DNA of 34,801 bases. It comes from Gammaproteobacteria bacterium (GTDB lineage Bacteria; Pseudomonadota; Gammaproteobacteria; SZUA-229). Positions 15,037 through 25,469 of this stretch are shown here, piece after piece; the first letter of the stretch is position 1, and each line of letters begins with the position of its first letter. The stretch is taken from the NCBI GenBank assembly GCA_015488885.1, contig WFMW01000052.1:1-34801 (forward strand), given 5' to 3'. Position numbers and translations under genes: made by a program. The notes under the pieces were generated by a model. That model saw only the letters and a program-made list of their open reading frames with translations. It was not told the DNA's origin and ran no database searches.

Positions 15037-15666
15037 ATGAAAACTGCACAAAATGTTTTTTCTAAACAACATATTTTTTCTAAACGTCATGGTTTTATTG
15101 ACCAACGTGGTTTTACCTTAATTGAAATGATTGGGGTGATGGCCATTATTGCCATTCTGGCCTCAGTAGCAACACCAAAAATACTGGATGCAATTCAAAG
15201 TTCAAAAATTTCTGCTTATCTGGCAGAAGCGAAAAATATAAAAGATGCGGCGTTTAATTATTATAAAGATACAGGAAGATGGCCTGCTCAATACTCTTTG
15301 AATACAGCTAATCAATACCAGAATTTAATGGTTAAGCCTGCTAGCGCAAGCATTAAAGGCTGGAATGGTCCTTATCTTAATGCCAGACTGGCGAATGAAA
15401 TTACCGAAGGCGCTGCTCAGTATGTTTTTGCTACTAATAGTACAAATTATGCCTGTGATATAAATGGTGATGGAAAACAGGATGGCACTTTTTTAATATA
15501 TCGTATTGATAATGTTAGCGATGAGATTGCAAAAAAGATCAGTAATATTGTTGATCATGATGGTGATAATGTTAGTGGAAATAACAGCTGGTTAAAGGCT
15601 GGGCGGATAAAGCGATATGCCGGGAAGGCGGGCTCTATCCTGGTGTATTGTCTGGCACGTGTATAG
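15037..15666 (+). CDS. type IV prepilin / GspG-like major pseudopilin of the filament locus
   Basis: A 209-residue prepilin. The class III leader is 25 residues, ending QRG, with cleavage before F26; the mature N-terminus FTLIEMIGVMAIIAILASV has the Glu at +5 required for assembly. The globular domain has a GWNGPYL segment (108-114) characteristic of GspG-type pseudopilins. It also has an EF-hand/dockerin-like calcium loop DINGDGKQDG (141-150) and a second acidic DHDGDN (173-178). Two cysteines (C140 and C205) could close a C-terminal disulfide loop. The ATG at 15037 follows a GGAG at about 8 nt; the frame is open upstream to 14974 but without a pilin-like sequence. First gene of the locus, just ahead of the ATPase. 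Confidence 0.85.
   Translation: MKTAQNVFSKQHIFSKRHGFIDQRGFTLIEMIGVMAIIAILASVATPKILDAIQSSKISAYLAEAKNIKDAAFNYYKDTGRWPAQYSLNTANQYQNLMVKPASASIKGWNGPYLNARLANEITEGAAQYVFATNSTNYACDINGDGKQDGTFLIYRIDNVSDEIAKKISNIVDHDGDNVSGNNSWLKAGRIKRYAGKAGSILVYCLARV
15055..15090. repeat. 18-bp tandem duplication inside the prepilin leader
   Basis: 15055-15072 and 15073-15090 encode VFSKQH and IFSKRH, two near-identical six-residue blocks in the basic leader peptide. The duplication is in frame and lengthens the leader to 25 residues. Confidence 0.8.
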
Positions 15667-15668
15667 TC

Positions 15669-17393
15669 ATGTTTGACAGCAGTATTGTCAATGAAGTGAG
15701 TGCTCCCCCAGTTGGTAGTGCAGAACATATGACAAAACCAGTAAAGCGGTTGGGCGAACGTCTGATTGATGCTGGCTTGATCACGCAAATGCAGCTTGAA
15801 CTGGCGCTACGCGAGAAAAAACGTCAGGATAAATTTCTTGGTGAGATACTGGTTGACCTGGGTTTTGTTACCCCGGATGCATTAACCCATATTCTTGCAA
15901 CAGAAAATAAAACAGATGTTGTTGATGTCGTTAATACAACCATTGATCCTAATGTGCTTGCAACGGTTGACTATGATATTGCAAAACAACATAAATTAAT
16001 ACCTCTTCAACTTGATGGTAATCGTTTAACGGTTGCCTTTTCTGATGCCTATAATATTGTTGCCATAGACCTGATTGAACGGCAGACGGGTAAAACGGTA
16101 AATGTTGTGACCGCGCCGGAAAAAGCCATCCTTGAAGCGCTGGAAAATAATTATGCACAGAGCCATTCCATTCTGGAAACCATCGACCAGTTATTAAATG
16201 AAGATATTGAACTGCTGGGTGAAAATATTGAAGATATTTCGCCGATGGTTAAACTGGTAGATCAGATTATTGCCCGGGGAGTTAAAGATAAAGCTTCCGA
16301 TATCCATATTGAACCTGATGAACGTGTGGTAAGAGTACGATATCGCGTTGATGGTGTACTTCGGTCTGATGTGCTGGTTCCCGGCGACTTTCGGCTGGCA
16401 TTAACCGCCAGATTAAAATTAATGGCGGGCATTAATGTTTCTGAAAAACGTGTGCCGCAGGATGGACGTATTCATTTCAAATACGGTAGTGGTGAAATAG
16501 ATTTAAGAGTATCAACCTTGCCAACCAGCTATGGTGAAAGTATTGTTCTGCGTATTCTTGATTCAGGCAGTGTGAAATTATCACTGGACAAACTTGGATT
16601 ATCCAGCCGGGATAATAAAAGATTTATTGATGCCATGAACCAGCCTTATGGCATGGTACTGGTTACCGGGCCTACCGGGAGTGGAAAAACCACCACCCTT
16701 TATACCGCGTTGGGACAGGTAGACAAGGAAACACGCAGTGTGTTTACACTTGAAGACCCGATTGAGTATAGCCTGCCAATGATTCGTCAAACGCCGATTA
16801 ATGCTGAAGTTGGTATGGACTTCGCGGCAGGATTAAGGGCTTTGTTAAGGCAGGATCCTGATGTTATATTGCTGGGGGAAATACGTGATCTTGAAACCTC
16901 TCAGTTAGCCATACGTGCTGCATTAACAGGTCATCTGGTACTGTCAACACTGCATACTAATACGGCTGCTGGATCAATTCCACGGTTAATTGATATGGGT
17001 GTTGAACGTTATCTGCTGCCATCAGCATTGCACGCAGTAATGAGTCAGCGTCTGGTGCGTCGTTTATGTGAACATTGTAAACAGGAAATAAGTGACAGTG
17101 ATAAGCTGGTTGAAACCTATGGACTGGCAGACTACTTGCCGCAAAGCTGGCAGTTTTATCAGTCATCCGGTTGTGATCACTGCGGTCAAAGCGGTTTTCA
17201 GGGGCGTAAGGTGATTTATGAAATGTTAATGATGGACGAAACCATGCATGATCTGGTTATTAATAATGCATCAGTTACCGAAATAGAACAACAGGCAAAA
17301 CACAATGGCATGAAATCTATCTTTGAAAATGGTGTGCAATGTGCCGCGCAGGGAATGACGACCATTGATGAAGTGTTACGTGTGGTGCGTTAA
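15669..17393 (+). CDS. mshE: type IV filament assembly ATPase, MshE/GspE-like
   Basis: A cytosolic hexameric extension ATPase of 574 residues from the ATG at 15669; earlier ATG 15648 overlaps the prepilin and later M21 is possible. An MshEN-type N-domain repeats the RLGxxL...I...L...L pattern twice (residues 27-50 and 57-79), the fold that binds c-di-GMP in V. cholerae MshE, though both expected Gln positions are K50 and E79. The motor has Walker A GPTGSGKT (334-341), an Asp box, Walker B VILLGEIRD (399-407) and His box LSTLHTNTAAGSIPRL. The zinc tetracysteine motif C467/C470 and C502/C505 is intact. It lies 2 bp after the prepilin gene and 24 bp before the platform gene. Confidence 0.92.
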   Translation: MFDSSIVNEVSAPPVGSAEHMTKPVKRLGERLIDAGLITQMQLELALREKKRQDKFLGEILVDLGFVTPDALTHILATENKTDVVDVVNTTIDPNVLATVDYDIAKQHKLIPLQLDGNRLTVAFSDAYNIVAIDLIERQTGKTVNVVTAPEKAILEALENNYAQSHSILETIDQLLNEDIELLGENIEDISPMVKLVDQIIARGVKDKASDIHIEPDERVVRVRYRVDGVLRSDVLVPGDFRLALTARLKLMAGINVSEKRVPQDGRIHFKYGSGEIDLRVSTLPTSYGESIVLRILDSGSVKLSLDKLGLSSRDNKRFIDAMNQPYGMVLVTGPTGSGKTTTLYTALGQVDKETRSVFTLEDPIEYSLPMIRQTPINAEVGMDFAAGLRALLRQDPDVILLGEIRDLETSQLAIRAALTGHLVLSTLHTNTAAGSIPRLIDMGVERYLLPSALHAVMSQRLVRRLCEHCKQEISDSDKLVETYGLADYLPQSWQFYQSSGCDHCGQSGFQGRKVIYEMLMMDETMHDLVINNASVTEIEQQAKHNGMKSIFENGVQCAAQGMTTIDEVLRVVR

Positions 17394-17417
17394 CCTGAAT
17401 TAAACGGGTATATCCTT

Positions 17418-18620
17418 ATGACAGAATATATCTATCATGCAGTGGATTCAAAAGGCCAGGCTATTGACGGGACAATGGCGGCTGACTCGGAACAGAACCT
17501 CGATATACAATTACAACAACTGGGTTACTGGTTAATTGATGCGGCAAAAAAGCATGGTAAAAAGGATCTGATTAAGGTCCGTACTTCACGTCGGGATCTG
17601 ATCGATTTTTTCAGTGCCTTGAGTTCCCTGCTGGCAGCAGGTGTAGGAATTTCCAAAACGCTTGATGCGATAGTCGGGGAAACTACGGATGAAGGCTTTG
17701 CAATAGTCATTAATGATATGAAAATTAATGTGGAAGCTGGTATCAGCCTGGATGTTGCAATGGCAAAACATCCACAAATTTTTTCATCACAGATAATCAA
17801 CTTAATCAAAGCGGGTGATTATAGCGGTAATCTTGCCACGGCCTGTGATGATATCAGTCGTCATCTTGAATGGCTGGATAAGATAATGTCTGAAGTAAAG
17901 CAGGCCAGTATCTACCCGGTAACTGTGCTGCTGGCAGTCATGGGGCTGGTATTTCTGATGTTTAGTTTTGTGGTGCCGCAGTTTAATAAGATATTTATCA
18001 GCCTGCATCTCAAGTTACCGGCTTTAACTCGGGCAGTGGTAGATATGGGTGAGTTCTCAACCCGATACTGGTGGCTGTTATTAAGCATACCAGTAGCCAT
18101 CACCGTGTTTCTAAAATACGGCCCTGTATGGTCATTAAAAATAAAAATAAAACTGGATCAGTTAAAGCTTGATATACCTGTGTTTGGCCATTTAAACAGG
18201 ATGATTCTGCAATCAAGGTTTTGCCATAATATGGCTTTATTATTAAAGGCTGGCGTACCCATTCTTGAAAGCCTGTCATTATGCAAAGCATTAATGGGTA
18301 ACTGGCAAATGCAAACTGCTGTCGCAGAAGCAGAGGCTGCTGTTAATGAGGGACAGCGAATGTCAGAAGCTCTACGTAAGCATCGAATTATCTCTCCTGT
18401 TGTATTGAGAATGCTGGTTGTCGGGGAAGAAACAGGTGAGCTGGATAAAATGCTGGAGTGTGCATCTTTACGTTTTGATAAAGAGATTCCGAGGCAAATA
18501 AAATATATTTTTAATCTTGTTGAACCGGTAGTTATGTTTTCCCTGATAAGCATTGTTGGTTTGATAGGTGGCGCAATATTCATGCCGATGTTTGGTCTGA
18601 TTTCAGGGATAGGAAATTAG
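17418..18620 (+). CDS. mshG: inner-membrane platform protein, MshG/GspF-like
   Basis: A 400-residue polytopic protein with two T2SS-F domains (about 63-186 and 262-390) that couples ATPase motion to filament assembly. Membrane segments are near residues 168-190 (VTVLLAVMGLVFLMFSFVV), 213-232 and 370-395 (VVMFSLISIVGLIGGAIF). The N-terminus MTEYIYHAVDSKGQAIDGT and the repeated FCHNMALLLKAGVPILESL / LSSLLAAGVGISKTL blocks are diagnostic of the GspF/PilC/MshG family. Length matches. Directly follows mshE and precedes the second prepilin. Confidence 0.92.
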   Translation: MTEYIYHAVDSKGQAIDGTMAADSEQNLDIQLQQLGYWLIDAAKKHGKKDLIKVRTSRRDLIDFFSALSSLLAAGVGISKTLDAIVGETTDEGFAIVINDMKINVEAGISLDVAMAKHPQIFSSQIINLIKAGDYSGNLATACDDISRHLEWLDKIMSEVKQASIYPVTVLLAVMGLVFLMFSFVVPQFNKIFISLHLKLPALTRAVVDMGEFSTRYWWLLLSIPVAITVFLKYGPVWSLKIKIKLDQLKLDIPVFGHLNRMILQSRFCHNMALLLKAGVPILESLSLCKALMGNWQMQTAVAEAEAAVNEGQRMSEALRKHRIISPVVLRMLVVGEETGELDKMLECASLRFDKEIPRQIKYIFNLVEPVVMFSLISIVGLIGGAIFMPMFGLISGIGN

Positions 18621-18630
18621 GAAGATGAGC

Positions 18631-19413
18631 ATGAGGCAGTCTAATATGAAACGGTTTAATATAAAACGAAAAAGCAATGGTTTTACCTTGATAGAGCTTA
18701 TTGGTGTAATGGCCATTATGGCAATACTTGCCGGTGCCTTAGCACCAAATATTGCAGACAGTATTAACCGGGCAAACAGTGATGCGGAAGTGCAGAATCT
18801 GGACAGTCTGGCAGATAGTCTCATCTATTATATATTAACAAAAAAGAAAATCCCTTCATCCTCTCCATCTTCATGGGTCAATGCCATTGCCACAAACAGT
18901 ATGTTTCAGGAAGAAAGAATTAAATATAATGTAAAAGGTTACCAGCGCATCCTGATCTTTGATCCAAGATTTTTTTCAAATAATAAAGATAATAACTTTA
19001 CTGGATATACACAGAATAAAGGCCTGGCTAACTCACCTTTTTCACCAAGGATGATGCTGATATCCAGCCTGACCGGAAATATTCCTAGCATAGGAAACAA
19101 AGCCAGTATTTTTAATGCAATCTGGAACCAGAAAAATGCACCGGTATTAATGGAAAGTAAAAACCTGAAAATAAAACGTATAAATGTGGCAAAAAAATTT
19201 CATCGCATAATTTTGAGTAATGCAAAGTCGAATAAAACATTTTATCAGCTTGAAAATGGAAGCGAGGTAACAATTCCTGCTAAAAGTAATGGCGTTAACG
19301 GTATGCTAACTCGATACATTCTTGGTAGTACGAAACTTTCACTTTATAACACCACCGGAAAACTAGTGGATGTTCGTGTTATTCAGTCAGACTGGTCGTA
19401 TCAATATAATTAA
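18631..19413 (+). CDS. second type IV prepilin-like protein
   Basis: A prepilin of about 260 residues with a short basic leader ending KSNG and mature start FTLIELIGVMAIMAILAGALAP, again with Glu at +5. The N-helix is nearly identical to that of the first prepilin (both FTLIE[LM]IGVMAI[IM]AILA), whereas the globular domain differs and lacks GWNGPYL, cysteines and the calcium loop. ATGs at 18625 and 18631 are both close to AGGAAG (18619-18624); spacing favours 18631, and M at 18646 is a third option. A minor pilin or tip component is likely; which of the two prepilins is major is not settled. Sits 10 bp after mshG. Confidence 0.8.
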   Translation: MRQSNMKRFNIKRKSNGFTLIELIGVMAIMAILAGALAPNIADSINRANSDAEVQNLDSLADSLIYYILTKKKIPSSSPSSWVNAIATNSMFQEERIKYNVKGYQRILIFDPRFFSNNKDNNFTGYTQNKGLANSPFSPRMMLISSLTGNIPSIGNKASIFNAIWNQKNAPVLMESKNLKIKRINVAKKFHRIILSNAKSNKTFYQLENGSEVTIPAKSNGVNGMLTRYILGSTKLSLYNTTGKLVDVRVIQSDWSYQYN

Positions 19414-19437
19414 CAGCAATAACAATAATAACTGAAT

Positions 19438-20838
19438 ATGGATAAAACAATGAAACGATCACAATATGCTATTTCGTGGATATATGGTGAATTTCGTTTT
19501 TCACATCTGTCAAATACCGGAAAAGCCGAGAGCTGGCTGGTCAGCTTTCCGGTTACCGATGTTGAAAGTCTTGCTCGCGCAATGGCTGAGGTAAGTCAGC
19601 ATATTGATTTAACGCATGGGGGTAGTGTTGTTATTGCGTATGAAGATGATATGCATACGCATGAGTTTTTTGAGGTTCCGGAGATGGCCAGCAAGGATCT
19701 CGAAAAATATCTGCAAAGAAAAGTTGACCAAAATAAACCATTCAATGGCAAGGCATCATGGTGTTATCACGATGCTAAATACAGTGAACAGGGTAAAGGC
19801 ATTTTGTTGCACCTTTTGCCGCAGGAAATTGTTGATGCCACGATCAGGATATGTGAAGAATTTTATCTTACGCCACGTTTATTTATACCATTGACTGCTG
19901 TTGTTTCGAGTCAGGTAAAAAACTATAGTTTTGATGGCAATTACGTTCTTGTGGTTGTTGCCCTGTTCAGTCAACGCACTGAAATCGTGGTTACCATGAG
20001 TGATGGTGAGGTATTATTTGTACGTGAGCTGCCATATGCAGGCTATCTTGAAGGTCAGCCACGGCTTGTTATAGATATCAATCGAACCATAAGCTATGTA
20101 AAACAGCAGTTTGCCATGGCTGTTAACCGGGTATGTCTGATTGGAGAAAATGCAGAAGCCGTTCAGAAAAATATACTGACTGATATCAATGTAGATATAC
20201 ACTATGATCAGGATGGTCTGGATGCGTTGTTCTGGGCAAAGATTACATCAGGACTAAAGACCAATATCTCTGCCAACTTTATCCCCTTATTAACCAGAAA
20301 GCGTATTAACAAAACACTCTTCTACCGGGTCGCTGTCTGGTCAACCATGCTGCTTGTTATAACATCATTGTTCATTACTGCCACTATTGAAAAAACGGTT
20401 TCGGATCGAGGCGGTAACAGTCAATCATTAGATGAAGATATCAGTCATCTTGAAAACAGTATTAAACACTATAAATTATTAAATTCCAGACGCGAGGAGG
20501 AAAAGAACAGATTAAGAATATTGCGTGCCAATGCAACAAATATACCAGCTATATTTATTAACCATCTTGGAGATATAGTGCCGCGAGGACTGGTTATAGT
20601 TAATGCAAATATAAAATTAAAAGATAGAAAATGGAATGTTATGTTGACAGGAACGAGTCAGGGAATACTTTCCAGTGACATGAAAAGTCTGGATAAAATG
20701 GAACAGGCACTGAAACAAGATCCATGGAATATGACTATTACAAGGAGCTGGAAATCGGCATGGTATAAACATTTAACATCAGGCTCGGCAGGGCATTCAG
20801 CTCAGTCAGAATATACAATAGCAGGCTGGATGAAATGA
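19438..20838 (+). CDS. mshI: MshI-like assembly protein, PilM-like plus PilN-like fusion
   Basis: A 466-residue protein combining an N-terminal cytosolic PilM/actin-like region (about residues 1-285) with one transmembrane helix (295-316, YRVAVWSTMLLVITSLFITA) and a PilN-like periplasmic part. The latter has a coiled coil (about 325-365) and a small ferredoxin-like end (LGDIVPRGLVIVNANIKLKDRKWNVMLTG). Nucleotide-binding motifs are too diverged to place. Such a fused architecture is also that of GspL. It should link the ATPase to the inner-membrane ring. Start at 19438 or the ATG four codons on (19450). The stop overlaps the next start as ATGA. Confidence 0.68.
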   Translation: MDKTMKRSQYAISWIYGEFRFSHLSNTGKAESWLVSFPVTDVESLARAMAEVSQHIDLTHGGSVVIAYEDDMHTHEFFEVPEMASKDLEKYLQRKVDQNKPFNGKASWCYHDAKYSEQGKGILLHLLPQEIVDATIRICEEFYLTPRLFIPLTAVVSSQVKNYSFDGNYVLVVVALFSQRTEIVVTMSDGEVLFVRELPYAGYLEGQPRLVIDINRTISYVKQQFAMAVNRVCLIGENAEAVQKNILTDINVDIHYDQDGLDALFWAKITSGLKTNISANFIPLLTRKRINKTLFYRVAVWSTMLLVITSLFITATIEKTVSDRGGNSQSLDEDISHLENSIKHYKLLNSRREEEKNRLRILRANATNIPAIFINHLGDIVPRGLVIVNANIKLKDRKWNVMLTGTSQGILSSDMKSLDKMEQALKQDPWNMTITRSWKSAWYKHLTSGSAGHSAQSEYTIAGWMK

Positions 20839-21560
20839 AAGCAGTGCCTGTACATGAACGACGCATAAAGCCACGCTTTAAGATGCCTGCACCATCACCG
20901 TTCAGAGCTTTTCTTTTTATGACTGATCGAATAGGCAGAAAAATATATCATTCATGGGTTAATACAGGCATTCTTCTTCTTGTTATAGCTGTTAGCCTGT
21001 CAATGATTCTTTGGGGTATATATGTTCGTATACCTGAGGCGGATAAATTATTAACGCAGTATCGCCAGAAAGAATCATTACAGAAACAGTTATTAAGTAT
21101 AGAAAAGCAATGGTCAGAACCTGGCATGTTATTACTTGAAAAGAAAATATCAAAAGAACAGGCAAGAGTATTTAATGGGGTTGATTCTCTGGCGCAATGG
21201 TTAGTCAATAAAGCCCATGAGGCAGCAAAACTAGGTTTTAATATGAATTATATTATTAACAAACAAAATAAAACCCGTTTAAAAAATATCTATACCCTGT
21301 CCATTGTAATCACATTAAAGGTTAAGGGTAAACCAGACGATAGTATCTATACAGGCGCATTAAAATTTATTCGTAGGCTTATTGAAGAGAATCAGCATCT
21401 TAATATTTCTGTTATCAATATGAAAAGCCTTGGTCATGGTGTTGATGAAATGGTTATTGAAATAAGCGTATGGGTTAGAGATATAAACGCAATGTTAAAA
21501 AAAACTAAAATGAATAATAAGGATAATGTTGATGAAAATACAGATATCACGGGTCTTTAA
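20835..21560 (+). CDS. mshJ: MshJ/PilO-like inner-membrane assembly protein
   Basis: A 241-residue bitopic protein: a basic cytosolic N-terminus, one transmembrane helix (about residues 38-58, NTGILLLVIAVSLSMILWGIY), a coiled-coil stretch around 70-100 and a periplasmic domain. Sequence similarity to a family is weak, but length, topology and position between the MshI-like and MshK-like genes match PilO/GspM/MshJ. Its ATG overlaps the TGA of the preceding gene, implying translational coupling. The last 29 bp overlap the next gene. Confidence 0.6.
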   Translation: MKAVPVHERRIKPRFKMPAPSPFRAFLFMTDRIGRKIYHSWVNTGILLLVIAVSLSMILWGIYVRIPEADKLLTQYRQKESLQKQLLSIEKQWSEPGMLLLEKKISKEQARVFNGVDSLAQWLVNKAHEAAKLGFNMNYIINKQNKTRLKNIYTLSIVITLKVKGKPDDSIYTGALKFIRRLIEENQHLNISVINMKSLGHGVDEMVIEISVWVRDINAMLKKTKMNNKDNVDENTDITGL

Positions 21561-22068
21561 TAAGAAACTGGCTATTATCTTGCTTGTTGGTATTGCTGTT
21601 TATGTTAATGCTACTAATTTTATTCATATCCATGCAGACAATGATTCGGCTGCTGTACAGGGAGACCCTGTTGGTATCGATGATGATATTGAAATATCAA
21701 CTGGTTCCAAAAATTCTGCTTTAAGCAGGATTAATATAAAATCTCTGCACTGGCGTGATAGTCCGTTACGAGATCCATTCAGTGTTTTATCAAACAAATA
21801 TTTATCAAACCGGTATTTATCAGGCAGGAACAGCTTGGTTCCCTCAAAAAAAGCTGCCTTACTAAGTCGGTCTGATACCCTGGGCTTTTCTCCAAAAATA
21901 ACTGCTTTAATTGCCGGGGTTAACTCGAAGTTAGTGGTGTTAAACGGAAAGATATTTACTGAAGGACAGCGCATAGGGGGCTATCGTATTGTAAAAATAA
22001 ATCATCAGGGTATTTTACTGGATAACATTCATGGGCATTCATCATTGACTCTGAAAATGGATAGATAG
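21532..22068 (+). CDS. mshK: MshK/PilP-like periplasmic protein
   Basis: From the ATG at 21532 (AAGGA 9 nt upstream) it has 178 residues; an ATG at 21526 gives two more. An N-terminal hydrophobic anchor (about 12-30) is followed by an LRDPF segment and a C-terminal beta domain with ALIAGVNSKLVVLNG and GQRIGGYRIVKI, the pattern of MshK/PilP/GspC HR domains that contact the secretin. It precedes the secretin gene by 3 bp, as PilP does PilQ. A 15-bp tandem duplication lies inside it. Confidence 0.66.
   Translation: MKIQISRVFNKKLAIILLVGIAVYVNATNFIHIHADNDSAAVQGDPVGIDDDIEISTGSKNSALSRINIKSLHWRDSPLRDPFSVLSNKYLSNRYLSGRNSLVPSKKAALLSRSDTLGFSPKITALIAGVNSKLVVLNGKIFTEGQRIGGYRIVKINHQGILLDNIHGHSSLTLKMDR
21793..21822. 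repeat. 15-bp tandem duplication within the mshK-like gene
   Basis: 21793-21807 and 21808-21822 encode NKYLS and NRYLS. A third, shorter partial copy precedes them (TTTTATCA). The reading frame is preserved. Confidence 0.75.
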
Positions 22069-22071
22069 TCT

Positions 22072-23625
22072 ATGAATAATATACTTAAAATTCTCCTTCT
22101 GCCATTTATATTAGCTTCCTGTACAACCATGTCTGATAGAATAAATATAGATGATTTCCCCAGACACCATTCACAGGTGAAGGAAGTTATTCATCACCTC
22201 GATATCAAGCCCCTTGCAGTGCGTGAGCGCATGTCATGGCCTTCGAACAGACCTGTTTTACCTATAAAAACTACAGAAAAACTCTATACTTTTGCAGCCC
22301 GAGATATGCCTGTTGATAAGGCGCTGGATTTATTCGCCAGAGCCTATAATCTGAATATACTTATTGATAAAAATATTCAGGGTACGATTAACGTTACTTT
22401 TCATGATTTGCCCTTTAATCAGGCAATGAGTTCCATTCTTGATTCACTGGGTTATTACTGGCAGCGCAATAATAACCTGATAGAAGTTAAAGCATTACAG
22501 ACAAAATTATTTAATATTAATTACATCAATCTGATTCGTACTGGCTCGGGTACAAGTGAAGCACAGGTTAGTACTGGTGGTGGTTCGGACGGTTCAGGGA
22601 GTTCGGGAGGTAGCAGTGACAGTAGCAGCAGTACAAGTGGTGGGAATATTACTGTTGAACAGAAAAATAATATTGCATTCTGGAGTGATCTGGAAAAGCA
22701 GTTAAAAATTCTGGTGTCACCCAAAGGTCGGCTGGTAATTAACCGGATATCGGGAACAATACAGGTGACCGATCTGCATCCAAGAGTGATGGAGATTGCT
22801 CGCTATATCAATGATATTAATAGTGCAATACTCAGGCAGGTGGACATTCAGGTGAAAATAGTTGAAGTGCTTCTGAATGATAATTTCAGTCTGGGGGTGG
22901 ACTGGTCACGTCTGGTTAATCAAACATCTGGTGCCAATTTAAATTTTAATATTAATAACACCATTACTTCTCCAACTGCTGGTGTTGGTGCTGCACTTTC
23001 GAATGTGCTTCATCTTACTGCTGCCGATATAGGGAGCCATGGTGAGAACAAGATTACCGCTATGATTACCGCATTACGCCAGCAGGGTCAGGTTCAAATT
23101 GTTTCCCAGCCACATATTCGAACATTAAATAATCAGTCGGCGTTAATCAAGGTGGGCACTGATCGTACTTTCTTTCGTCGTGAGCAGAATACCGATAATA
23201 CAACGGCGGGTTCTAACACCACAACCACTGATGTACCACAGGTAGTTACCGAAGGAATCGTATTGTCCATTACCCCGCAAATTTCAAAAGATGGTTGGGT
23301 TATGATGGACATTTCACCTGTGGTAACCCGTGTTTCCAGCGTTACTGAAGTTAAAGACAGCAAAGGTGATGTAAAATCCTCTGCACCTAATCTGGATATT
23401 CGCCAGATTTCCTCTTTAGTGCGTGCCTTTAATGGTGAAACCGTGGTCATTGGCGGTCTGATACAAACCGTTGATGCAGATACGCATCGTGGGGTACCGG
23501 GGTTGAGTGATGTTCCGGTAGCCGGAAATTTGTTTAAAGCTAAAAGTACCTCAAAGGCAAGAAAGGAATTGATTATATTTTTAACGCCAACAATTATTGA
23601 TACCAGAAAAATCTTTCATAGTTAA
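22072..23625 (+). CDS. mshL: outer-membrane secretin lipoprotein, MshL/PilQ-like
   Basis: A 517-residue secretin that forms the outer-membrane pore for the filament. It is a lipoprotein: lipobox LASC with lipidated C17. An STN/N0-like domain lies at about 70-140 (TFAARDMPVDKALDLFARAYNLNILIDKNIQG), then a Gly/Ser-rich linker at about 167-191, an N-domain at 200-290 and the secretin domain to the end, including the signature VPGLSDVPVAGNLF and LIIFLTPTII. The lipidated N-terminus and STN arrangement are as in MshL. Lies between the mshK-like gene (3 bp) and the TPR gene (11 bp). Confidence 0.9.
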   Translation: MNNILKILLLPFILASCTTMSDRINIDDFPRHHSQVKEVIHHLDIKPLAVRERMSWPSNRPVLPIKTTEKLYTFAARDMPVDKALDLFARAYNLNILIDKNIQGTINVTFHDLPFNQAMSSILDSLGYYWQRNNNLIEVKALQTKLFNINYINLIRTGSGTSEAQVSTGGGSDGSGSSGGSSDSSSSTSGGNITVEQKNNIAFWSDLEKQLKILVSPKGRLVINRISGTIQVTDLHPRVMEIARYINDINSAILRQVDIQVKIVEVLLNDNFSLGVDWSRLVNQTSGANLNFNINNTITSPTAGVGAALSNVLHLTAADIGSHGENKITAMITALRQQGQVQIVSQPHIRTLNNQSALIKVGTDRTFFRREQNTDNTTAGSNTTTTDVPQVVTEGIVLSITPQISKDGWVMMDISPVVTRVSSVTEVKDSKGDVKSSAPNLDIRQISSLVRAFNGETVVIGGLIQTVDADTHRGVPGLSDVPVAGNLFKAKSTSKARKELIIFLTPTIIDTRKIFHS

Positions 23626-23636
23626 ATGAGATTGTC

Positions 23637-24347
23637 ATGAGAATAATAGTATTATTGATACTGATGGGTTTGGCACCGTTTGCCAGTGCTGTGGAAAGTA
23701 ACGATTTATCACCGATCAAAATCATTCATCCTGCCCGTTCATTACCTCGTCAACAAAATACTGGTTCTATACTGGCGGCAGCATTAAAAGCGGAAAATAC
23801 GGGTAATTTGATCACAGCTATATCTCTGCTCAAACCCGTCTATCAACACCTGCCAGATAATGCATTGGTTCGTTTGAACTATGCAAGAGTGCTGATCGAA
23901 AATGGTGAGGCGAATAAAGCTATTGCTGTTGTCCAGCCTCTGGTGAACAAAAACTCTCAGGACTGGCGTCCCTGGTTCTGGTTGGGCAGTGCGCAGTTAA
24001 TGTCTGGTGATCTGGAAAACGCAGCTGAGTCACTTGATGCAGCGCTGGATCGAGAGGGGAAAGTAATGGCTATCTGGGTGCAACGAGCCATTGTTGCGCA
24101 GCAACGTGGCAAGACGAAAGCGGCATTAAGTTTATTACAGGTGGCTTATGGTATTGAACCGAAAAATGCTGATGTGGTATTAAATTATGCCTATACGCTG
24201 GAGCAGGCCGGGCAATTAAAAAAAGCACTGAATGCTTATCAGCTTTTTTTACAGATGACAGCAGCCAAACCTCATTATGGTACTTTACGCCGACAGATAC
24301 TTCAACGACTGGATAAAATTGCTGCCGGAGTAACCGTGTATAAATAA
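23637..24347 (+). CDS. periplasmic TPR protein, MshN-like
   Basis: A 236-residue protein with a signal peptide (cleavage after FASA, about residue 18) and at least four tetratricopeptide-like repeats between about 45 and 215, with regular ALKAEN / AISLLKP, ALVRLNYARVLIENGE, WFWLGSAQLMSGDLENAAESL, ALSLLQVAYGIEP and VVLNYAYTLEQAGQLKKAL helices. It closes the filament locus and resembles the MshN-type TPR gene that follows mshL/mshM in MSHA loci. No ExeA-like MshM gene is found between it and the secretin. Confidence 0.74.
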   Translation: MRIIVLLILMGLAPFASAVESNDLSPIKIIHPARSLPRQQNTGSILAAALKAENTGNLITAISLLKPVYQHLPDNALVRLNYARVLIENGEANKAIAVVQPLVNKNSQDWRPWFWLGSAQLMSGDLENAAESLDAALDREGKVMAIWVQRAIVAQQRGKTKAALSLLQVAYGIEPKNADVVLNYAYTLEQAGQLKKALNAYQLFLQMTAAKPHYGTLRRQILQRLDKIAAGVTVYK

Positions 24348-24689: not shown

Positions 24690-25469
24690 ATGAGAAGTAA
24701 ATCGATTGTTAGTCGTATAAAATATATTCAGCAATATTTGAATTTAAACGCTGATGGTATTATTGGTGCTGATACACTGACGGCAATTAGCAATAAACTG
24801 TTTGAAAATGCTGATGAGAATAAGCTCTGGTCACTGACCATTTCAAGAGCTGGAAGGGATCAGTTAATGGCCAGTGAAATTACTTCGCTCACGCATTACC
24901 AGCGTTTTTTACAGTCTCCCGTCTGGCCTGGCGGTGGCTCGGGAATAACCGTCGGTATTGGTTATGATCTTGGTTATCATCGCGGCAGCCAGATACAGCA
25001 GGACTGGGCATGTATTGTTTCTGATAAGGATATACAGGCTTTAGTCAGCGTTTGCGGCTTAACTGGTAAACAGGCAGGCAAAGCACTCAAATCGGTTTCC
25101 GGGGTAGAAATACCCTATGCTGCTGCCAGTCAGGTATTCTGTGAAAGCAGTTTGCCACGGTATGCTGCACGTACAAAAAAAGTCTATCCCGGCGTGGAAT
25201 TATTATTACCCGATGCACAGGCCGCAATATTGTCACTGGTCTACAACCGTGGCACAGCAATGAGCGGAGTAAAGCGTAAAGAAATGGCAGCGATTAAACA
25301 ACTGGTTAAACAAAAGGATTATTCAGCCATTGCTGATGAAATAATCAGTATGAAACGCCTGTGGATTGGCAACGACCTGGACAGCCTGTTAAAACGCCGC
25401 GATGATGAAGCCGATCTGGTGCGTTACCCATCCTCAAAATACCAACCGGCTGATTTAATACGGGTATAA
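24690..25469 (+). CDS. peptidoglycan-binding and lysozyme-like (pesticin-type) protein
   Basis: A 259-residue protein with no signal peptide. Residues about 5-33 (IKYIQQYLNLNADGIIGADTLTAI) match a peptidoglycan-binding PG_binding_1 motif. The rest resembles a lysozyme-like domain found with PG-binding domains in bacterial proteins: SPVWPGGGSGITVGIGYDLG (90-110), LSLVYNRGTAMSG, then ISMKRLW and LLKRRDDEADLVR near the end. The catalytic Glu is probably E63 in MASEITSLTHYQRF, by analogy with T4-like lysozymes, but I cannot confirm it. No holin or phage genes are adjacent, so an orphan endolysin or toxin domain is likely. How it reaches the wall is unclear. Confidence 0.7.
   Translation: MRSKSIVSRIKYIQQYLNLNADGIIGADTLTAISNKLFENADENKLWSLTISRAGRDQLMASEITSLTHYQRFLQSPVWPGGGSGITVGIGYDLGYHRGSQIQQDWACIVSDKDIQALVSVCGLTGKQAGKALKSVSGVEIPYAAASQVFCESSLPRYAARTKKVYPGVELLLPDAQAAILSLVYNRGTAMSGVKRKEMAAIKQLVKQKDYSAIADEIISMKRLWIGNDLDSLLKRRDDEADLVRYPSSKYQPADLIRV

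Follow-up and report, generated by a model that had tools for sequence, protein, structure and literature searches.

Among described type IV filament systems, the closest to the locus reported here is the MSH pilus. The known MSH pili mediate adhesion and work with borrowed PilD and PilT (PMC6668835, PMC9815625). None of the MSH loci surveyed in PMC6668835 includes a prepilin peptidase, and Vibrio MSHA requires PilT for extension as well as retraction (PMC9815625); to have both of these encoded outside the locus is normal for MSH (PMC6668835, PMC9815625). In the published MSH model, MshM counts as mandatory, with one missing mandatory gene tolerated and a minimum of 3 (PMC6668835).

Here, we describe a nine-gene block on a 34,801-nucleotide stretch of DNA (the window), which is an entire contig of a 2.63 Mb gammaproteobacterial genome reported as 100% complete. 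The block shares with the MSH system (PMC6668835; example Aeromonas caviae, L106) the lineage of its ATPase (E), platform (G), and secretin (L), an MshEN domain, the I-J-K-L-N and E-G-pilin blocks, and the lack of a prepilin peptidase in the locus. It differs in that MshM is missing, the MshN-like protein has neither the cytoplasmic tail nor the anchor of MshN, there are two prepilins only, the presumed major one being GspG-like, and the gene order is circularly permuted. Because MshM is mandatory in the published model, the block should be classified apart from standard MSHA pili.

Content of the nine-gene locus

The block consists of nine plus-strand ORFs, all open and intact, that are contiguous over positions 15037 to 24347. 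The ORF coordinates bear out the initial annotation, which had described nine contiguous plus-strand genes with gaps of at most 24 bp or overlaps: intergenic spacing is 3-24 bp, and the overlaps are I/J and J/K. The family assignments made there also hold in Pfam and NCBIfam profile searches, with I, J, and K named by position and by conservation across relatives. The features are as follows.

15037..15666, plus strand: prepilin 1 (p1), class III prepilin; PF07963, 34.9 bits; best full model TIGR01710 GspG
15457..15483, plus strand: p1 residues 141-149, DINGDGKQD, a Ca2+-loop-like motif; putative metal binding
15672..17393, plus strand: assembly ATPase E, GspE/PilB superfamily, MSH lineage by tree; PF00437, 446 bits
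15747..15905, plus strand: MshEN domain of E; NF053729, 60.6 bits (cut-off 38); degenerate second c-di-GMP motif
17418..18620, plus strand: inner-membrane platform G, GspF/PilC superfamily; PF00482, 150 bits; included in the concatenated tree
18625..19413, plus strand: prepilin 2 (p2), class III prepilin; PF07963, 34.1 bits; large conserved head, own family
19438..20838, plus strand: MshI-like protein I; same place in 17 loci
20835..21560, plus strand: MshJ-like protein J; position conserved, sequence weakly so
21526..22068, plus strand: MshK-like protein K; GspC/GspB-type C-terminal region, weak CdsD_C and T2SSB matches
22072..23625, plus strand: secretin L, MshL-like lipoprotein by tree; PF00263, 144 bits; TIGR02519, 238.9 bits; lipobox LASC
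23637..24347, plus strand: TPR protein N; PF14559, 76 bits; MshN-like TPR part, signal-peptide-like N-terminal segment, no MS..xLK tail

The ATPase carries Walker A, Asp box, Walker B, and His box motifs plus two CxxC pairs, and both prepilins pass the N-methylation motif model (PF07963). I and J have no family match in Pfam or NCBIfam; the RDPF and C-terminal motifs of K are kept across relatives in the alignment. For the secretin, the MshL model TIGR02519 is the best match, just below its cut-off of 250.2 bits, which the secretins of the related loci L091 and L094 do reach. Models of other systems all scored below cut-off: GspE and GspD for E and L, the type IVa pilus models PilB (577.5 of 675.65 bits) and PilQ (174.2 of 284.35 bits), and the Tad/type IVb models TIGR03819 (53.6 of 373.15 bits) and TIGR02520 (168.4 of 287.65 bits). 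Promoter-like matches were at the level of shuffled sequence (33 observed vs 31.2 shuffled). Right after the block, a 259-aa ORF (24690-25469) matches neither Pfam (1e-5) nor NCBIfam (1e-6), and it is not conserved beside the block in the relatives examined.

E passes the MshEN domain model NF053729. The receptor criterion for this domain is two 24-residue motifs, RLG..Q; motif II of E reads F..E where Vibrio MshE has R..Q, and it fails even the relaxed pattern of PMC5013675. Since single charged-residue changes in MshEN cut affinity by no more than about fivefold (PMC5013675), c-di-GMP binding by the MshEN domain of E is uncertain but still conceivable.

Two prepilin families with a common N-terminal region

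The initial annotation noted that the two prepilins share an unusual N-helix but have unrelated heads, and both observations are real. E-x-IGVMAI-(I/M)-AILA is present in p1 and p2, and a degenerate DNA pattern for it gave two matches among 398 genomes of the phylum, both in the source genome. In p1 and p2 relatives (alignments A5 and A6, respectively, 13 sequences each), the motif loosens to IGV(M/L/I)A(I/V). A p1-p2 profile comparison aligns 71 N-terminal columns only; the prepilins are thus two families with a common N-terminal region.

Beyond the N-helix, p1 resembles the major pseudopilin GspG of the type II secretion system (T2SS). Its profile aligns with that of GspG over 116 columns (99.3%), including the W-x-GPYL region, whereas its alignment with MSH pilins is confined to the N-helix (54 columns). 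The p1 score on TIGR01710 GspG is 45.4 bits, half of the cut-off of 88.85. The p2 profile also matches GspG, more weakly (102 columns, 98.2%), so this likeness is a matter of degree. The pattern D-x-(D/N)-G-(D/N)-G-x-x-D of the Ca2+ loop occurs in 10 of the 13 p1 homologues in A5, which suggests that p1 perhaps binds Ca2+. Based on size and conservation, p1 is presumed to be the major, shaft-forming subunit and p2 a tip or minor subunit. AlphaFold models from two-row alignments (mean pLDDT 48 for p1 and 35 for p2) were too poor for a fold search, and matches of the two profiles to solved structures were mostly to N-helices.

Phylogenetic placement and gene order

The new loci form one clade in the ATPase tree (support 98/97), in the secretin tree (90/82, or 96/94 when two long Opitutaceae branches are included), and in the concatenated E+G+L tree (100/100). 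MSH and the new loci are joined against type IVa pili (T4aP) and T2SS in the secretin tree (100/100) and against T2SS in the concatenated tree (100/100), where five T2SS loci form their own group (100/100). E and L also fall outside the PilB/PilQ clade in the ATPase and secretin trees, which distinguishes the block from a type IVa pilus; Tad and type IVb pili were compared through profile models. In the concatenated tree, the new clade groups with MSH of the type found on contig C66 of the source genome (98/95), with Aeromonas-type MSH outside. Canonical MSH is paraphyletic to the new clade in the ATPase and concatenated trees and sister to it in the secretin tree. The nine-gene system is a further branch of the MSH lineage.

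The suggestion in the initial annotation that this is a distinct machine is supported by the 100/100 clade and by a gene order conserved in two classes of the phylum. Its distance from MSH had been overstated, as the clade falls within the MSH lineage in all three trees. In the ATPase and secretin trees it proposed as a check, the genes lie inside the MSH lineage, in a clade of their own apart from T2SS and T4aP. The order p1-E-G-p2-I-J-K-L-(M)-N, described there as rearranged, is the Vibrio order I-J-K-L-M-N-E-G-pilins in circular permutation. In Aeromonas L106, the genes from K to the pilins follow the latter order.

Two MSH loci are especially useful for comparison. The canonical MSH locus of the source genome, on contig C66, has the order response regulator-M-L-N-E-G-I-J-K-pilins. 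It groups with the new clade in the ATPase and concatenated trees; however, it has MshM, an anchored MshN, a sigma-54 response regulator, and a different order, and its secretin is 29% identical to that of the window. Several genomes of the family keep the arrangement of the C66 locus (L040, 3776-17603), with the sigma-54 response regulator first (L053, L056). The second comparison is L066, from genome G772, which is the earliest branch of the new clade. This locus and those of its genus have the p1-E-G-p2-I-J-K-L order of the window and IGV(L/I)A pilins, but they keep MshM and an anchored MshN, and their p2 is much longer.

Conservation and origin of the block

The nine-gene block is a conserved, co-inherited unit. 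All nine genes are found in the same order in the gammaproteobacterial MAG NORP146, with a secretin 65% identical to that of the window. The NORP146 block sits between holA and proA (names by reading of the translations), and its gene coordinates match those of the locus in G452, a genome that falls in the window's family. Of 54 genomes of the order, only the window genome, G452, and G458 have the MshI-like protein. A single-sequence MshI search of 369 genomes of the class added G718, the distant G772, and the spurious G756, and a five-sequence MshI profile kept G718 and G772. Applied to a sample of the phylum, this profile detected another 11 genomes, all in two families of another class, f58 (8 of 74 sampled genomes) and f78 (3 of 3; denominators by hand count).

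With one profile per gene, the p1-E-G-p2-I-J-K-L-N order was recovered in L061, L065, L091, L094, and L099. The block of L060 is truncated inside E by the contig end, p2 lies upstream on the opposite strand in L092 and L095, and the N gene gave no profile match in L093, L097, L098, and L100. The gene-order search proposed in the initial annotation thus shows that the order recurs across two classes of the phylum: it is the same in a genome of the same family, in a different order of that class, and in a further class, with unrelated surroundings. No description of this order was found in the literature searched, coverage of which was partial. No relative of MshI was found on plasmids, nor any relative of secretin L in viral contigs.

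The block was probably gained by horizontal transfer, based on its low G+C (37-41% over much of the block vs 45-49% in most of the flanks), the different insertion site in NORP146, and the nesting of the window, NORP146, and G718 among loci of the other class in the secretin and concatenated trees. Altogether, the block is a real and conserved form of the MSH machine, and probably a transferable one.

Loss of MshM and the MshN tail

The absence of MshM is more telling than the gene order. MshM is kept, after L, in L066, the first branch of the clade; the remaining eleven clade members in the concatenated tree (98/98) are without it. Neither the window nor any other nine-gene locus gave an MshM profile match, and G077, a 99% complete genome with a nine-gene locus, has no MshM relative genome-wide at E 1e-8. 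In most of the other carriers, related AAA ATPases are encoded elsewhere in the genome, and the canonical mshM of the source genome belongs with the C66 locus.

This absence coincides with a change in the MshN-like protein. In 10 of 10 MshM-bearing loci examined (canonical and L066-type), this protein starts with MS(L/I/V)..x(A/M/V)LK, followed at some distance by a hydrophobic segment, which is weak in L055. The motif is absent from the nine MshM-less members with an N gene, which have a signal-peptide-like start; L061 is an exception, as its N-terminus includes undetermined residues. L051 (9537-15391, genome G056), a canonical-type locus, has no MshM match in the stretch compared, nor does G056 at E 1e-8. 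The presumed MshN of L051 is without the MS..xLK motif but keeps a membrane segment, so that MshM and the MshN tail may have been lost together here a second time, independently. These counts are not independent evidence, because they reflect about two evolutionary events. This pattern suggests that MshM may dock on the cytoplasmic MshN tail, and a natural MshM-less clade that has also lost the MshN tail and anchor makes this a testable idea of MshM's role.

Host genome and surroundings

The flanking genes that were checked are housekeeping genes: trp genes, kdtA-lpxL-tolC-pcm-thiC, kdsA, and kdsB. In the stretches compared, kdtA-lpxL-tolC-pcm-thiC is conserved in relatives without the nine genes beside it. 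The window has no MshM or prepilin peptidase profile match and no second T2SSE-family gene. The initial annotation had listed MshM, PilT, and prepilin peptidase as absent from the window, and this was confirmed, with MshM, PilD, and PilT-type genes found elsewhere in the genome. Contig C3 includes PilB-PilC-PilD, C55 PilQ, and C5 three PilT-type ATPases, and T2SS genes are also present. The locus can thus be supplied from outside, with PilD from C3 and PilT-type proteins from C5. The block had also been called nearly self-contained, which is only partly right, since a prepilin peptidase must come from outside the locus.

Probable function of the putative filament machine

Our preferred reading, to which we give a probability of roughly 60%, is that the block codes for a single type IV filament machine of the MSH lineage, which spans the envelope, uses two pilins, and most likely serves attachment. 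This is suggested by the intact catalytic and pilin cleavage motifs, the same order in three orders/classes with unrelated surroundings, the single clade in three trees, inside MSH and apart from T2SS and T4aP, and the PilD and PilT-type genes in the genome. In such a machine, E would power pilin extraction through platform G, I-J-K would connect the platform to secretin L, and N would support the secretin from the periplasm. The GspG-like and perhaps Ca2+-binding p1 would polymerize as the shaft, with p2 and its large conserved head as tip or cap. PilD would cleave both prepilins, and the PilT-type ATPases may retract the filament, which, like other MSH pili, would attach the cell to surfaces or other cells. 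Against attachment as its role, the canonical MSH and T4aP of the genome could already serve adhesion.

Since p1 resembles the T2SS major pseudopilin more than it does MSH pilins, it could form a short periplasmic pseudopilus that pushes specific proteins through the secretin. The extent of the p1-GspG match, the weak GspC/GspB-type matches of K, and a block with just two prepilins all fit such a secretion machine, and we consider it a serious but distinctly less likely explanation. The ATPase, platform, and secretin fall outside T2SS with full support, the GspH, I, J, and K minor pseudopilin models all score below cut-off, there is no GspH-K set, no candidate substrate gene is conserved next to the block, and the genome already has T2SS genes. 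Of the two functions, adhesion is the more likely. Mineral contact, electron transfer, or DNA uptake, raised in part by the initial annotation, is improbable: there is no cytochrome or competence gene in or beside the block, and beyond that suggestion it would draw only on the block's occurrence in a second class that may be, at a guess, iron-oxidizing Zetaproteobacteria. Still less probable is a decaying, functionless remnant of an acquired MSH locus. The loss of MshM and the MshN anchor and the low GC content could be read as decay, but none of the nine reading frames is interrupted, the motifs are intact, and widely diverged members of two classes retain this same reduced set.

Within the filament reading, we propose only tentatively that this locus is the founding example of a separate, transferable filament family, that is, a reduced MSH machine without the cytoplasmic MshM-MshN coupling, with a Ca2+-dependent GspG-like subunit and a function of its own. 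If so, the disappearance of the MshN tail together with MshM would indicate that docking on this tail is how MshM acts. The nine-gene set (eight in one branch) is near minimal and offers a way to study MSH-type filament assembly with two pilins. Current annotation models scatter such loci among GspE, GspG-like, MshL, and hypothetical proteins.

Other type IV filament loci

Several candidate relatives were rejected. L067, the match in G756, was a false lead: it is a PilMNOPQ type IVa locus with a weak MshI match. Plasmid loci of Manganitrophus and Indioceanicola were among the better ATPase matches and have other gene sets. On the Candidatus Manganitrophus plasmid CP114554.1 (L110, 7316-15503), type IV filament genes lie near conjugation genes and include two prepilins, two GspE-family genes, a GspF-type platform, and PilT. 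Two Opitutaceae plasmid secretins join the clade in the secretin tree; given their long branches and other arrangement, they were not counted as members. These secretins (L045, 11695-13329; L046, 9869-11551) adjoin GspE/PilT-type ATPases. In the source genome, the three PilT/PilU-type ATPase genes on C5 (L041, 14228-17632) are in tandem near T2SS genes, and contig C30 (L043, 1-420) includes the C-terminal piece of another GspE-family ATPase, cut by the contig end, which adjoins a cysteinyl-tRNA synthetase-like gene.
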